64,000 bases of DNA from Pseudomonas guariconensis. Its GTDB lineage: Bacteria > Pseudomonadota > Gammaproteobacteria > Pseudomonadales > Pseudomonadaceae. This document shows positions 8,541 to 11,605 of this stretch, one piece after another. A model generated the notes under the pieces. It was given only the letters and a program-made list of their open reading frames with translations. It did not search any database and was not told where the DNA came from. The position numbers and the translations under genes are program-made. How positions within the stretch are numbered: position 1 is the stretch's first letter; every line of letters begins with the position of its first letter. The stretch spans positions 372,001-436,000 of the forward strand of contig NZ_FMYX01000001.1 in the NCBI RefSeq assembly GCF_900102675.1, given 5' to 3'.

Positions 8541-9632
8541 CTAGGCACCTTTTGCCAGTTGCGCCGACCAGCAGACGAACCGGTCCTTGCCACTGTGCTT
8601 GGCTTCGTACAGCGCCTGGTCGGCCCGCACCAGCGCCATGCTCAGGGTGTCACCCTGCTCGACGCGGGTCAGGCCGATGCTGATGGTCACCGGGTGCGCG
8701 TTCAGGTCTTCGCGCACCCGCTGACACAGCGCTCCCACTTGCCGCTCGGCACCTTGCTGATCCAGCCCTTGGAAATAGATGGCGAACTCTTCGCCGCCCA
8801 GGCGTGCATAGGCATAGCTGGCCATGCTCGCCTTGATGTGCGCGGCCACACGCTTGAGCACCTCATCACCGATGTCATGGCCGAAGCGGTCGTTGACCCG
8901 CTTGAAATTATCGATGTCGATCATCGCCAGGTACTGCCCGGATGGGGCCTGTTGCAACTGCTGTTCGGCCTTGAGCATGAACGACCGGCGGTTTGGGATT
9001 TCAGTCAGGGCATCGATGTAGGCCTGCTCCATCAGGACCTTGGATAGGTAGAAGTTGTGCAGCTTGGCTTGGCGCATCCGCAAATAGGCGTAGATCACCA
9101 GCCCGCAAAGAAACACCGCATAGCTCGTCAACATCGCACCTTCGAGTTCGAGAAACTCGATACGCGTGTGCTGGAAAGGATTGAGCACCAGCCAAGTGAT
9201 GGCCATGGCACAGAAGAACGACCAACGCTGTACCGGCAGCACCGAAACGCTGTAGAGCACCGTCGACACCCCCAACACCAGCCACACGGGGCGCAGGGCA
9301 ATGGGAATGCCGTCTATCACCAGGCGCATGCCCAGGGTGATGGTCGCGATGAACATCAGGTTGAGTACGTCGAAATGCTGGCTTTTGCGGATAAACCCAA
9401 GCACGACCGTGATGGCGCACAGTGCAGCGAGAAACACCATCGATCGCCAGGTGAATTCCTGATCGCCCAGGTAGCTGACGATCAGGTCGAAGATCAGCCA
9501 GATGACGATGCTGACGCTGAATATCAGCAGGCAGAACCGGCGCATGGCCTCGAATTCGTGCTGGCGGAATTCGGCGCGCAGCGCAGCGGGGGCCACCTGC
9601 TTGCGCAACTGGTCTTCGATGGTCTTGAACAT
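8541..9632 (-). CDS. Membrane-bound diguanylate cyclase (GGDEF)
   Basis: The enzyme makes c-di-GMP from two GTP. The 363-residue protein has an N-terminal membrane region with about six helices (residues 35-185) and a C-terminal GGDEF domain. The active-site motif is GGEEF at 279-283, preceded by DIDNFKRVNDRFGHDIGDEVL, so it should be catalytic. The RxxD inhibitory site that normally sits five residues upstream of the motif is absent (SMASYAYARLGGEEF), which suggests weak or no product inhibition. It converges on the two-component operon and appears monocistronic. Confidence 0.92.
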   Translation of the reverse strand: MFKTIEDQLRKQVAPAALRAEFRQHEFEAMRRFCLLIFSVSIVIWLIFDLIVSYLGDQEFTWRSMVFLAALCAITVVLGFIRKSQHFDVLNLMFIATITLGMRLVIDGIPIALRPVWLVLGVSTVLYSVSVLPVQRWSFFCAMAITWLVLNPFQHTRIEFLELEGAMLTSYAVFLCGLVIYAYLRMRQAKLHNFYLSKVLMEQAYIDALTEIPNRRSFMLKAEQQLQQAPSGQYLAMIDIDNFKRVNDRFGHDIGDEVLKRVAAHIKASMASYAYARLGGEEFAIYFQGLDQQGAERQVGALCQRVREDLNAHPVTISIGLTRVEQGDTLSMALVRADQALYEAKHSGKDRFVCWSAQLAKGA

Positions 9633-9860
9633 GCTGGACGGGAACTCCTTGAAGTTCTCTGGTGTTTGATTGGCGCTGTGCTGCAGCGGATGTCTCCGCC
9701 CTCAGAGAGTCAAGCCCAGACTGCTCAACTGGTCCAGCCAAGTGCTGGCGTCCCGTCGGGCGAACGTCTGCTACTGCTACCGCGGCGTCGACTGCCGCTC
9801 GCCAAGCGCTAGATTGACGCGCTTAATGCCTGGCGGGGAATTTACCTGAAAGAGGAGGTG

Positions 9861-9889
9861 TTGACTTCCTACGGGGTGGCGGGCTAATT
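9861..9889 (+). promoter_or_regulatory. ilvA: Sigma-70-type promoter for the ilvA leader
   Basis: TTGACT (-35, 9861-9866) and CTAATT (-10, 9884-9889) are separated by 17 bp. The predicted start site at about 9896-9899 coincides with the leader-peptide ATG, so the leader mRNA would be leaderless or nearly so. Only the motif match supports it. Confidence 0.6.
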
Positions 9890-9898
9890 TCCCAACCC

Positions 9899-9961
9899 AT
9901 GAACCCATACCTGCAGCGTCGCGCCATTATTATTACCGCCATTATCGGATTGGCGGGCTAG
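9899..9961 (+). CDS. Ile-rich leader peptide of the ilvA attenuator
   Basis: This 20-residue frame reads MNPYLQRRAIIITAIIGLAG and then stops. Five of seven consecutive residues are isoleucine, with one threonine (III-T-A-II), the product and the substrate of the threonine deaminase pathway. It is followed 15 bp later by an intrinsic terminator and then by ilvA. No Shine-Dalgarno sequence lies at the usual distance; the nearest purine-rich run (aggagg) is about 40 bp upstream and inside the promoter. This is the classic layout for ribosome-mediated transcription attenuation. Confidence 0.8.
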   Translation: MNPYLQRRAIIITAIIGLAG

Positions 9962-9976
9962 CGCGTACGTGCACCG

Positions 9977-10005
9977 AACCCGCCCTGGAGGCGGGTTTTT
10001 TCTTT
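9977..10005 (+). terminator. ilvA: Attenuator terminator upstream of ilvA
   Basis: Stem aacccgcc (9977-9984) pairs with ggcgggtt (9990-9997) around a 5-nt loop and is followed by a T-rich tract. The upstream ggcggg at 9952-9957, within the last leader codons, can pair with cccgcc (9979-9984) as an antiterminator when the ribosome stalls at the Ile codons. Confidence 0.8.
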
Positions 10006-10042
10006 CCGACTCCTGGGCCCTCGAAAACACCAGGAGTCATCG

Positions 10043-11605
10043 ATGACCAACCTCAGCGTCAGCCCTCGTAACACCGCCTCGCCCGCGCAGCTGCTTTCAG
10101 AGCAGGTGCGCCGCATTCTCAGCGCCCCGGTGTACGACCTGGCCATCGAGACACCCCTGCAACTGGCACCCGCGCTGTCGGCCACCTTGGGCAACCAAGT
10201 GCTGCTCAAACGCGAAGACCTGCAACCGACGTTTTCTTTCAAGATTCGCGGCGCCTATACCCGTTTGTCGCGCTTGACCCCAGCCCAGCGCGAGCGCGGT
10301 GTGATCACGGCTTCGGCGGGCAACCATGCCCAAGGCGTGGCGCTGGCCGCCTCACGGCTGGGCATGCGGGCGACCATCGTCATGCCGACCACCACCCCGG
10401 AACTCAAGGTGCAAGGAGTGCGCTCGCGCGGGGGGCACGTGGTACTGCATGGCGAAAGCTTCCCTCATGCCCTGGCCCATGCCCTGCAACTGGCCGACAG
10501 CGACGGCGCGACCTTCGTGCCGCCGTTCGATGACCCGGACGTGATCGCCGGCCAAGGCACCGTGGCGATGGAAATCCTGCGTCAGCAACCCGGCGCCCTG
10601 GACGCGATCTTTGTGCCGGTGGGGGGCGGCGGCCTGGTAGCGGGCATCGCGGCGTACGTCAAGTACCTGCGCCCGCAGGTCAAGGTGATCGGGGTGGAGC
10701 CAGAGGATTCCAATTGCCTGCAGGCTGCCCTGGCGGCGGGCGAGCGGGTGATCCTGCCCCAGGTCGGTACGTTCGCCGACGGCGTGGCAGTGGCGCAGGT
10801 CGGTGCCCATTGCTTCGAGTTGTGCCGCCATTTTGTCGATGAGGTGGTGACGGTCAGCAGCGACGAGTTGTGCGCGGCCATCAAGGACATCTACGACGAC
10901 ACCCGCTCGATCACCGAGCCCTCCGGTGCCCTGGCGGTGGCCGGGATCAAGAAGTACGTGGCCCGCGAAGGCGTCCAAGGCCAGACCCTGGTGGCGATCG
11001 ATTCCGGCGCCAACGTCAATTTCGACCGCCTGCGTCACGTGGCCGAGCGCGCCGAACTGGGTGAGCAGCGCGAGGCGATCATCGCCGTTACCATCCCCGA
11101 GCGCCCCGGCAGCTTCCGGGCGTTCTGCCAGGCGCTGGGCAAGCGCCAGATCACCGAATTCAACTACCGCTATTTTCCTGGGAAGGAGGCGCGGCTGTTC
11201 GTGGGCGTGCAAACCCACCCCCAGCACGACCCGCGCGAGCGCCTGCTGGCCAGCCTGCGCGAACAGGGCTACAACGTGCTGGACCTGACCGACAACGAAC
11301 TGGCCAAGCTGCACGTGCGCCATACGGTGGGCGGCCATGCTGCGCCAGGGGCGGATGAGCGGGTGCTGCGCTTTGAGTTCCCCGAGCGCCCCGGGGCATT
11401 GCTGGGCTTTCTCGAGCGCTTGGGCAAGCGCTGGAACATCAGCCTGTTCCACTACCGCAACCACGGTGCGGCTGAGGCGCGGGTGTTCGCTGCGCTGGAG
11501 GTCCCGGGCGATGAGCTGCCAGGCCTGCCCCAGGCCCTGGATGACATGGGCTATCGCTATTGGGATGAAACCGACAACCCGGCGTATCGGTTGTTCCTGG
11601 GCTAG
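10043..11605 (+). CDS. ilvA: Threonine ammonia-lyase (threonine deaminase), biosynthetic
   Basis: IlvA converts threonine to 2-oxobutanoate and ammonia, the committed step of isoleucine synthesis. The 520-residue length matches biosynthetic, allosteric IlvA rather than catabolic TdcB. The PLP lysine is K67 in TFSFKIRGAY, and the phosphate-binding glycine loop is VGGGGLVAG near residue 195. Two ACT-like regulatory domains occupy about residues 335-510, each starting with a PERPGSF/PERPGAL-type segment. An Ile-rich leader peptide and terminator precede it, so expression is probably attenuated by isoleucyl-tRNA charging. Many pseudomonads carry a second ilvA copy elsewhere; that cannot be seen here. 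Confidence 0.95.
   Translation: MTNLSVSPRNTASPAQLLSEQVRRILSAPVYDLAIETPLQLAPALSATLGNQVLLKREDLQPTFSFKIRGAYTRLSRLTPAQRERGVITASAGNHAQGVALAASRLGMRATIVMPTTTPELKVQGVRSRGGHVVLHGESFPHALAHALQLADSDGATFVPPFDDPDVIAGQGTVAMEILRQQPGALDAIFVPVGGGGLVAGIAAYVKYLRPQVKVIGVEPEDSNCLQAALAAGERVILPQVGTFADGVAVAQVGAHCFELCRHFVDEVVTVSSDELCAAIKDIYDDTRSITEPSGALAVAGIKKYVAREGVQGQTLVAIDSGANVNFDRLRHVAERAELGEQREAIIAVTIPERPGSFRAFCQALGKRQITEFNYRYFPGKEARLFVGVQTHPQHDPRERLLASLREQGYNVLDLTDNELAKLHVRHTVGGHAAPGADERVLRFEFPERPGALLGFLERLGKRWNISLFHYRNHGAAEARVFAALEVPGDELPGLPQALDDMGYRYWDETDNPAYRLFLG

Follow-up and report, generated by a model that had tools for sequence, protein, structure and literature searches.

A probable leaderless, isoleucine-coded attenuator upstream of ilvA in Pseudomonas and its match to the Rfam small RNA P9

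The window analyzed here is a continuous stretch of 64,000 nucleotides from Pseudomonas guariconensis (contig NZ_FMYX01000001.1, positions 372,001 to 436,000). It includes ilvA, whose product is identified as threonine ammonia-lyase by both Pfam and NCBIfam, and a short intergenic region that precedes it. The upstream neighbor (8541-9632) is oriented away from the leader and ilvA. A preliminary description of this DNA had reported an Ile-rich peptide of 20 residues, an intrinsic terminator and ilvA, in this order, and all of its coordinates are confirmed (Table 1). The RNA between 9899 and 10042 folds with a predicted energy of -58 kcal/mol (z -4.4) and is more stable than 200 of 200 shuffled sequences. 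The pairings of a classical attenuator (1:2, 2:3, and 3:4) are all present and mutually exclusive. Arm 1 is flanked by Ile codons, arm 2 takes up the final codons of the leader, where GGCGGG is read at 9952-9957, and the terminator is made of arms 3 and 4. The attenuator parts listed in the preliminary description are retained, but it had missed the identity with P9, the arm between the Ile codons that makes helix 1:2, and the hairpin over the ilvA Shine-Dalgarno (SD) sequence.

Table 1. Features of the ilvA leader region (positions of the window).
Feature	Position	Strand	Remarks
-35 box TTGACT	9861..9866	+	TTGAC 35-38 nt 5' of the leader ATG in 88/89 distinct upstream sequences
-10 region GCTAATTT	9883..9890	+	poor match to TATAAT; similar bases in relatives at equal distance from the ATG
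-10 alternatives	GCTAAT 9883-9888; CTAATT 9884-9889; TAATTT 9885-9890		all weak
Predicted RNA 5' end	9894..9899	+	A9894/A9895 or A9899; no room for an SD; basis: -35/-10 spacing, C at -1
Leader ORF MNPYLQRRAIIITAIIGLAG, 20 codons	9899..9961	+	ATG at 9899, stop TAG 9959-9961; read from the sequence
Ile control codons ATT ATT ATT ACC GCC ATT ATC	9926..9946	+	
Rfam RF00624 (P9) match	9926..9999	+	87.3 bits, E 1.9e-19
Arm 1 CCGCCA	9936..9941	+	predicted partner of arm 2 if the leader is ribosome-free; 1:2 covaries in A2
Arm 2 TGGCGGG	9951..9957	+	predicted partner of arm 1, or of arm 3 as antiterminator
Arm 3 AACCCGCC	9977..9984	+	terminator 5' arm; includes CCCGCC 9979-9984
Arm 4 GGCGGGTT	9990..9997	+	terminator 3' arm, followed by T run to 10001
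Intrinsic terminator	9976-9998 + U run	+	pattern scan
SD-hairpin 5' arm GACTCCTGG	10008..10016	+	support moderate
SD-hairpin 3' arm CCAGGAGTC	10030..10038	+	holds the ilvA SD AGGAG 10032-10036
ilvA	10043..11605	+	520 aa; biosynthetic threonine deaminase with two C-terminal regulatory domains

In a scan with Rfam covariance models, the stretch matches the full length of RF00624, "Pseudomonas sRNA P9," well above the gathering cut-off (87.3 bits against 43). P9 reportedly stems from work by Livny and colleagues (2006), who predicted it as an sRNA of P. aeruginosa and had support from Northern blots. Because RF00624 matches the same stretch as the attenuator, P9 is most simply read as the terminated leader of ilvA. 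By DNA similarity the leader is found in 216 of 298 genomes of the genus, and RF00624 detects it in 222 of 296 at E 0.001 (215 above the gathering cut-off), some of the weak matches being due to chance or lying before other genes; none of 14 control genomes has a match. Across the family, RF00624 matches 51 of 119 genomes (48 above the cut-off) and 8 of 19 genera. A pattern scan of named genomes returned at least 120 stretches. Among the 80 listed, 74 are from Pseudomonas, 70 of which retain both the peptide and a TTGAC placed 34-39 nt ahead of its ATG, and the named carriers include P. putida, P. fluorescens, P. protegens, P. chlororaphis, P. viridiflava, and P. amygdali. Several candidates were set aside: a second match in the window's own genome (C6, 29.3 bits, model positions 35-73) covers the terminator half only and is attributed to chance, the match in family genus g15 is likewise confined to the terminator half and probably due to chance, and the weak matches L298, L299, L300, L304, and L305 are terminators or chance.

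The leader was read in 90 loci, 30 obtained via DNA similarity and 60 further ones. All 90 contain an ATG-started peptide of 20-23 residues with 3-5 Ile and a stop before arm 3, a figure to be read with the selection in mind, because loci picked by similarity to the element, and a script that required three or more Ile together with a CCCGCC/GGCGGG terminator, favor conserved arms and peptide. The ilvA motif is located downstream in 88 of the 90. The Ile codons of the leaders are mostly ATT (307, with 49 ATC and 8 ATA), and those of the ilvA frames of 88 loci mostly ATC (1538, with 223 ATT and 23 ATA). ATT is less used than ATC, although its low G+C content may also help to keep the stretch unpaired. 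Some leaders (L090, L113, L140, L149, and L330-L332) show a shifted or earlier end past the Ile core (YWRAS, DWRAC, or ...IITAIT and stop), so the reading frame beyond the Ile codons appears dispensable.

A different reading would treat P9 as an independent trans-acting sRNA, with an incidental ORF and ilvA as a chance neighbor. This would agree with the Rfam entry, which is filed as a gene, with the presence of a promoter and terminator of its own, and with the finding, given in extracts of a study on Sinorhizobium meliloti rnTrpL (PMC7298713), that a terminated attenuator RNA can act in trans. However, an Ile ORF in 90 of 90 loci, adjoining ilvA in 88, a strong ATT bias and related leaders before other Ile genes speak against it, and this reading is very improbable. 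A dual role, in which the attenuator RNA also acts in trans, is possible. Isoleucine-controlled attenuation of ilvA, as first proposed in the preliminary description, is very likely, and the comparison among loci supports it through the peptides, an invariant helix 2:3, a nearly invariant 3:4, and a covarying 1:2.

These helices were examined in two alignments. Alignment A1 consists of 61 loci, thinned for similarity from 150; nine loci with a long insertion in the SD hairpin and the cut locus L134 had been dropped from the initial 160. Among the named loci, L128, L166, L173, L176, L177, and L188 (not Pseudomonas, and without such a leader), L115 and L167 (contig ends), L123 (without TTGAC), and L153 (before another gene) were left aside. 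In the 61 sequences, 100% of the cells are paired in 2:3, 100% in 3:4, and 99.7% in 1:2, with hardly any variation. The arms of 2:3 are invariant, giving zero covariation, and those of 3:4 nearly so. Because the arms are nearly invariant, A1 neither supports nor refutes the pairings. Both the Ile codons and the pairing arms are present in the relatives, as seen in the comparison across Pseudomonas that the preliminary description had suggested.

Alignment A2, comprising 39 hand-chosen loci (38 distinct) from several genera and before several genes, is more variable: CCGCC/GGCGG gives way to CCACC/GGUGG, among other combinations. In helix 1:2, six of the nine pairs have changed on both sides, the outermost of these six being paired in only 5 of the 38 sequences. 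The helix holds 31 such both-side cells against 8.1 in shuffles that ignore kinship (reached by 0 of 500), and its covariation score is 0.262 against at most 0.085 when the arms are slid. In helix 2:3 pairing is maintained by G-U pairs with no both-side change, and helix 3:4 has one both-side-changed cell. The predicted energies of the two alternatives are alike, with means of -14.5 kcal/mol for the antiterminator and -15.1 for the terminator.

The promoter had been described as consensus-like. In the window the -35 box is good (5 of 6) and its spacing is conserved, but the -10 is poor and a consensus promoter scan of the window reports no promoter at the leader; since the strict scan is blank here, the promoter call rests on conservation. 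In 88 of 89 distinct upstream sequences, 35-38 nt separate the start of TTGAC from the A of the leader ATG, which is the usual spacing of a -35 box from the transcription start. The bases between them are mostly not conserved, except for a C at -1 in 97% of the 89. In other genera, TTGAC lies at the same place in 15 of 20 loci and is absent from L317-L320 and L335. The predicted start in the window is 9895-9897 and the likely first base A9894, A9895, or A9899, so the 5' UTR would be 0-5 nt, not strictly zero. The proposed coincidence of start and ATG thus keeps A9899 among its candidates, but the predicted position lies slightly upstream. The preliminary description had also noted a 10-mer, tggcgggcta, repeated over the -10 box. 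The copy at 9877-9886 is indeed present, but its core, GGCGGGCTA, occurs within 45 nt before the ATG in only 1 of 90 loci, the window itself, and the repeat is considered a coincidence.

No SD sequence precedes the leader ATG in any of the 89 distinct upstream sequences, as had been stated for the window. In front of the leader the longest anti-SD match has a length of 2-4 nt; at ilvA, for which the in-frame ATG with the strongest SD was chosen, it has 5-6 nt in 72 of 87 loci. In 61 loci, the unpaired probability of the first 15 nt is 0.83, compared with 0.49 after mononucleotide shuffling. A leader of ordinary type could be restored by a longer transcript with a normal ribosome site, in which attenuation would still be real; the weak -10 and a GGAGGTG at 9854-9860 would suit it. 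However, GGAGGTG is some 40 nt away from the ATG, inspection by eye shows no conservation of it in the upstream sequences of relatives, the spacing between promoter and ATG is fixed, no SD is found and the upstream gene is divergent, all of which make this an unlikely arrangement. The fixed TTGAC-ATG spacing, the C at -1 and the lack of a ribosome-binding site support a leaderless start with a 5' UTR of 0-5 nt, which is likely, and the leaderless translation first proposed for this locus is favored by the comparison. That leaderless genes exist in the genus follows from 60 genes without a 5' UTR in P. aeruginosa, given in part of a transcription start site study (PMC3460626).

A further element lies over the ilvA SD, where GACTCC...GGAGTC or GTCTCC...GGAGAC is present in most loci inspected. 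Control could be mainly translational, with this hairpin as the switch and the terminator secondary. In the 61 aligned loci 87.2% of its cells are paired against 30-52% when slid, none of 500 shuffles attains its covariation score, and on three of five measures it exceeds every shuffle. However, 31 of 500 shuffles have at least as many both-side-changed pairs and 401 of 500 at least as many pair types, the second pair is mispaired in 24 of 60 sequences, nine loci have a long insertion between the arms, and there is no known signal to open the hairpin, which makes a mainly translational switch very improbable. The insertions, of about 100 nt (L093, L094, L098, L106, L132, L157, L163, L164, and L184), are presumably REP-like.

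The window's genome has two ilvA genes, and upstream of the second (C10) no Ile leader or terminator is seen by eye. Among P9 genomes tested, 14 of 16 have two close IlvA matches, some partial, and each of the 24 genomes tested that lack P9 before ilvA has one close IlvA, 72-76% identical. Upstream of 23 such P9-less ilvA genes the script finds no terminator pattern, and TTGAC in one. In a group including relatives of P. syringae, the IlvA encoded behind the leader belongs to the other lineage in a midpoint-rooted tree of partial proteins, where 26 proteins of this leader-bearing kind and 24 from leader-lacking genes form one clade (support 0.999). In the same group, 34 of 39 loci contain a second short ORF with an SD, which overlaps the ilvA start. 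This ORF lies between the P9 terminator and ilvA (L049-L058, L062, L063, L066, L068, L071, L076, L080, and L100, and the named loci L114, L142, L171, and L180). It has 25-39 aa, starts mostly with MI (often MI-I-I or MI-A-I) and ends mostly with TR and a stop that overlaps the ilvA ATG (CGATGA). Judged from the sequence, the second ORF and the leader are tandem Ile uORFs.

Related leaders precede other genes. A model built from A2 (R1) was used outside the family; its E-values are much too low, since even terminators scoring about 20 bits pass, and its tallies are therefore not used. Of 24 R1 loci, 21 were read (L402, L404, and L405 left out) and 15 have an Ile leader, the weakest of them (L394) with two separated Ile; L389, L390, L395, L399, and L401 are chance matches, and L388 is a doubtful case. 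The downstream genes encode threonine ammonia-lyase of another type (L391 and L393, NCBIfam cut-off met; L398 by eye), citramalate synthase (L387, a cut locus whose best model, CimA, is below cut-off; L396 by eye), isoleucyl-tRNA synthetase (L400, a cut locus whose best model, ileS, is below cut-off), and a P-loop kinase-like protein (nine loci). Ile metabolism accounts for three of the four classes, which fits Ile sensing. The kinase-like protein of L385 has "DNA topology modulation protein" as nearest NCBIfam model, far below cut-off.

In some genera, a SnoaL-like/DUF4440 gene stands between the leader and ilvA, as in L321, L324, L333, L334, L336, L138, and L160, and between the leader and an AAA_33 kinase in L317 and L318. 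Further SnoaL-like genes lie right behind an Ile leader in L319, L320, L335, L293, L294, L296, L297, L337, L340, L341, and L153. In the genus, the SnoaL-like gene is present in 9 of 199 genomes and the kinase in 46 of 199, and both are absent from the window's genome. The script finds Ile leader plus terminator at five of the nine SnoaL-like loci, and L344 has a poorer one by eye. For the kinase, the Ile leader is exceptional, since only 5 of 30 loci read have it. Kinase-like genes behind Ile leaders (L346-L349 and L354; L382-L386, L392, L394, L397, and L403) are found both in Pseudomonas and in further families of the order; they fall into two kinase groups, and their leaders carry as many as five consecutive Ile. 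Among solved structures, "hypothetical protein yybH" (2gxf) is nearest to the SnoaL-like protein, and PADLOC has no match for this protein or for the kinases. As a proposal with about even chances, P9-type leaders read from 5'-terminal start codons would define an Ile regulon of Pseudomonadaceae and other Pseudomonadales, absent from the literature searched, whose members are ilvA, small P-loop kinases and a SnoaL-like (NTF2/ketosteroid-isomerase-like) protein. A possible substrate of the latter is 2-aminocrotonate, the reactive enamine that IlvA makes, in analogy to the action of RidA on its imine, and P9 would be a by-product of the switch.

Taken together, the stretch is interpreted, with a probability of roughly 0.88, as a ribosome-mediated transcription attenuator that places ilvA under Ile control from a leaderless leader RNA. 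For this reading we infer the 5' end, leader translation, Ile response, RNA size and role of the SD hairpin as follows. RNA polymerase would start at, or within about 5 bases of, the leader ATG, and the 5'-terminal AUG would take up a ribosome that trails the polymerase. When Ile-tRNA is ample, the ribosome would reach the stop at 9959 and mask arm 2, so that the 3:4 terminator forms; the terminated product, the Rfam "sRNA P9," would have a length of about 100-107 nt. When Ile-tRNA is scarce, the ribosome would stall at ATT 9926-9934 or at the Ile codons 9941-9946 and mask arm 1, which would let arms 2 and 3 pair and ilvA be transcribed. If no ribosome loads, 1:2 would form and termination would be the default. 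Translation of read-through transcripts would probably be reduced by the hairpin over the ilvA SD. Points that count against this model are the weak -10, the lack of covariation in 2:3, the choice of loci by similarity to the element, the missing TTGAC in 5 of 20 loci from other genera, and the SnoaL-like and kinase genes, which have no known tie to Ile.

The mechanism itself is ordinary. What it would add is a likely function for the Rfam sRNA entry P9, a useful correction of that entry, and a suggested rule, conserved at ilvA across much of the family, of attenuation from a start codon at the RNA 5' end. The leader can also serve as a tag, a marker of the Ile regulon that ties two uncharacterized kinds of protein to Ile. 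It raises the question of how ribosomes load on a leaderless message fast enough to follow the polymerase.

In the open literature (titles and abstract starts; subscription papers and supplements lie outside this scope), no Ile attenuator at Pseudomonas ilvA, no reading of P9 as an attenuator, and no transcript end, ribosome footprint or Ile response for the leader were found. Word searches of the available text of individual papers agree: in Naville and Gautheret 2010 (PMC2965389), Pseudomonas appears only in connection with the leaders of rpsL and rnk, and the words ilvA, threonine, and isoleucine are absent; a P. syringae transcription start site paper (PMC3247240) has no leaderless, attenuat, leader peptide, ilvA, threonine, or Rfam; and for P. 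aeruginosa an sRNA paper (PMC3349714), a review (PMC8395346), and the start site paper (PMC3460626) have no ilvA, threonine, or leader peptide. As far as searched, the reading of P9 as an ilvA attenuator, the leaderless architecture across genera and the SnoaL-like/kinase link are new within the open literature.

Several known systems can be compared. RF00624 P9 has the same sequence, but there it is filed as an sRNA gene and here it is read as a terminated ilvA leader with ORF, promoter and antiterminator. The enterobacterial ilvGMEDA and thr leaders also combine Ile codons in a leader peptide with mutually exclusive hairpins, but they have an SD site and sense several amino acids; the Rfam Thr_leader model gives the window only 15.4 bits (cut-off 55). 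In Corynebacterium glutamicum ilvBNC, IlvL is, according to PMC11857589, a branched-chain-coded leader without ribosome site and with +1 one base from the start codon. It shares the type of peptide, the lack of a ribosome site and the link to Ile/Val synthesis, but the phylum, gene and sequence are different and its codons are two Ile, three Val, and two Leu. In S. meliloti trpL (rnTrpL/peTrpL), extracts of PMC7298713 describe an RNA that begins at the leader-ORF ATG and a terminated small RNA that acts in trans. The leaderless start proposed for ilvA and its predicted small-RNA product would be shared, whereas the S. meliloti leader is Trp-coded, precedes trpE(G) and has known trans roles. 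With these two leaderless attenuators as precedents, the mechanism proposed for ilvA is of a known kind.
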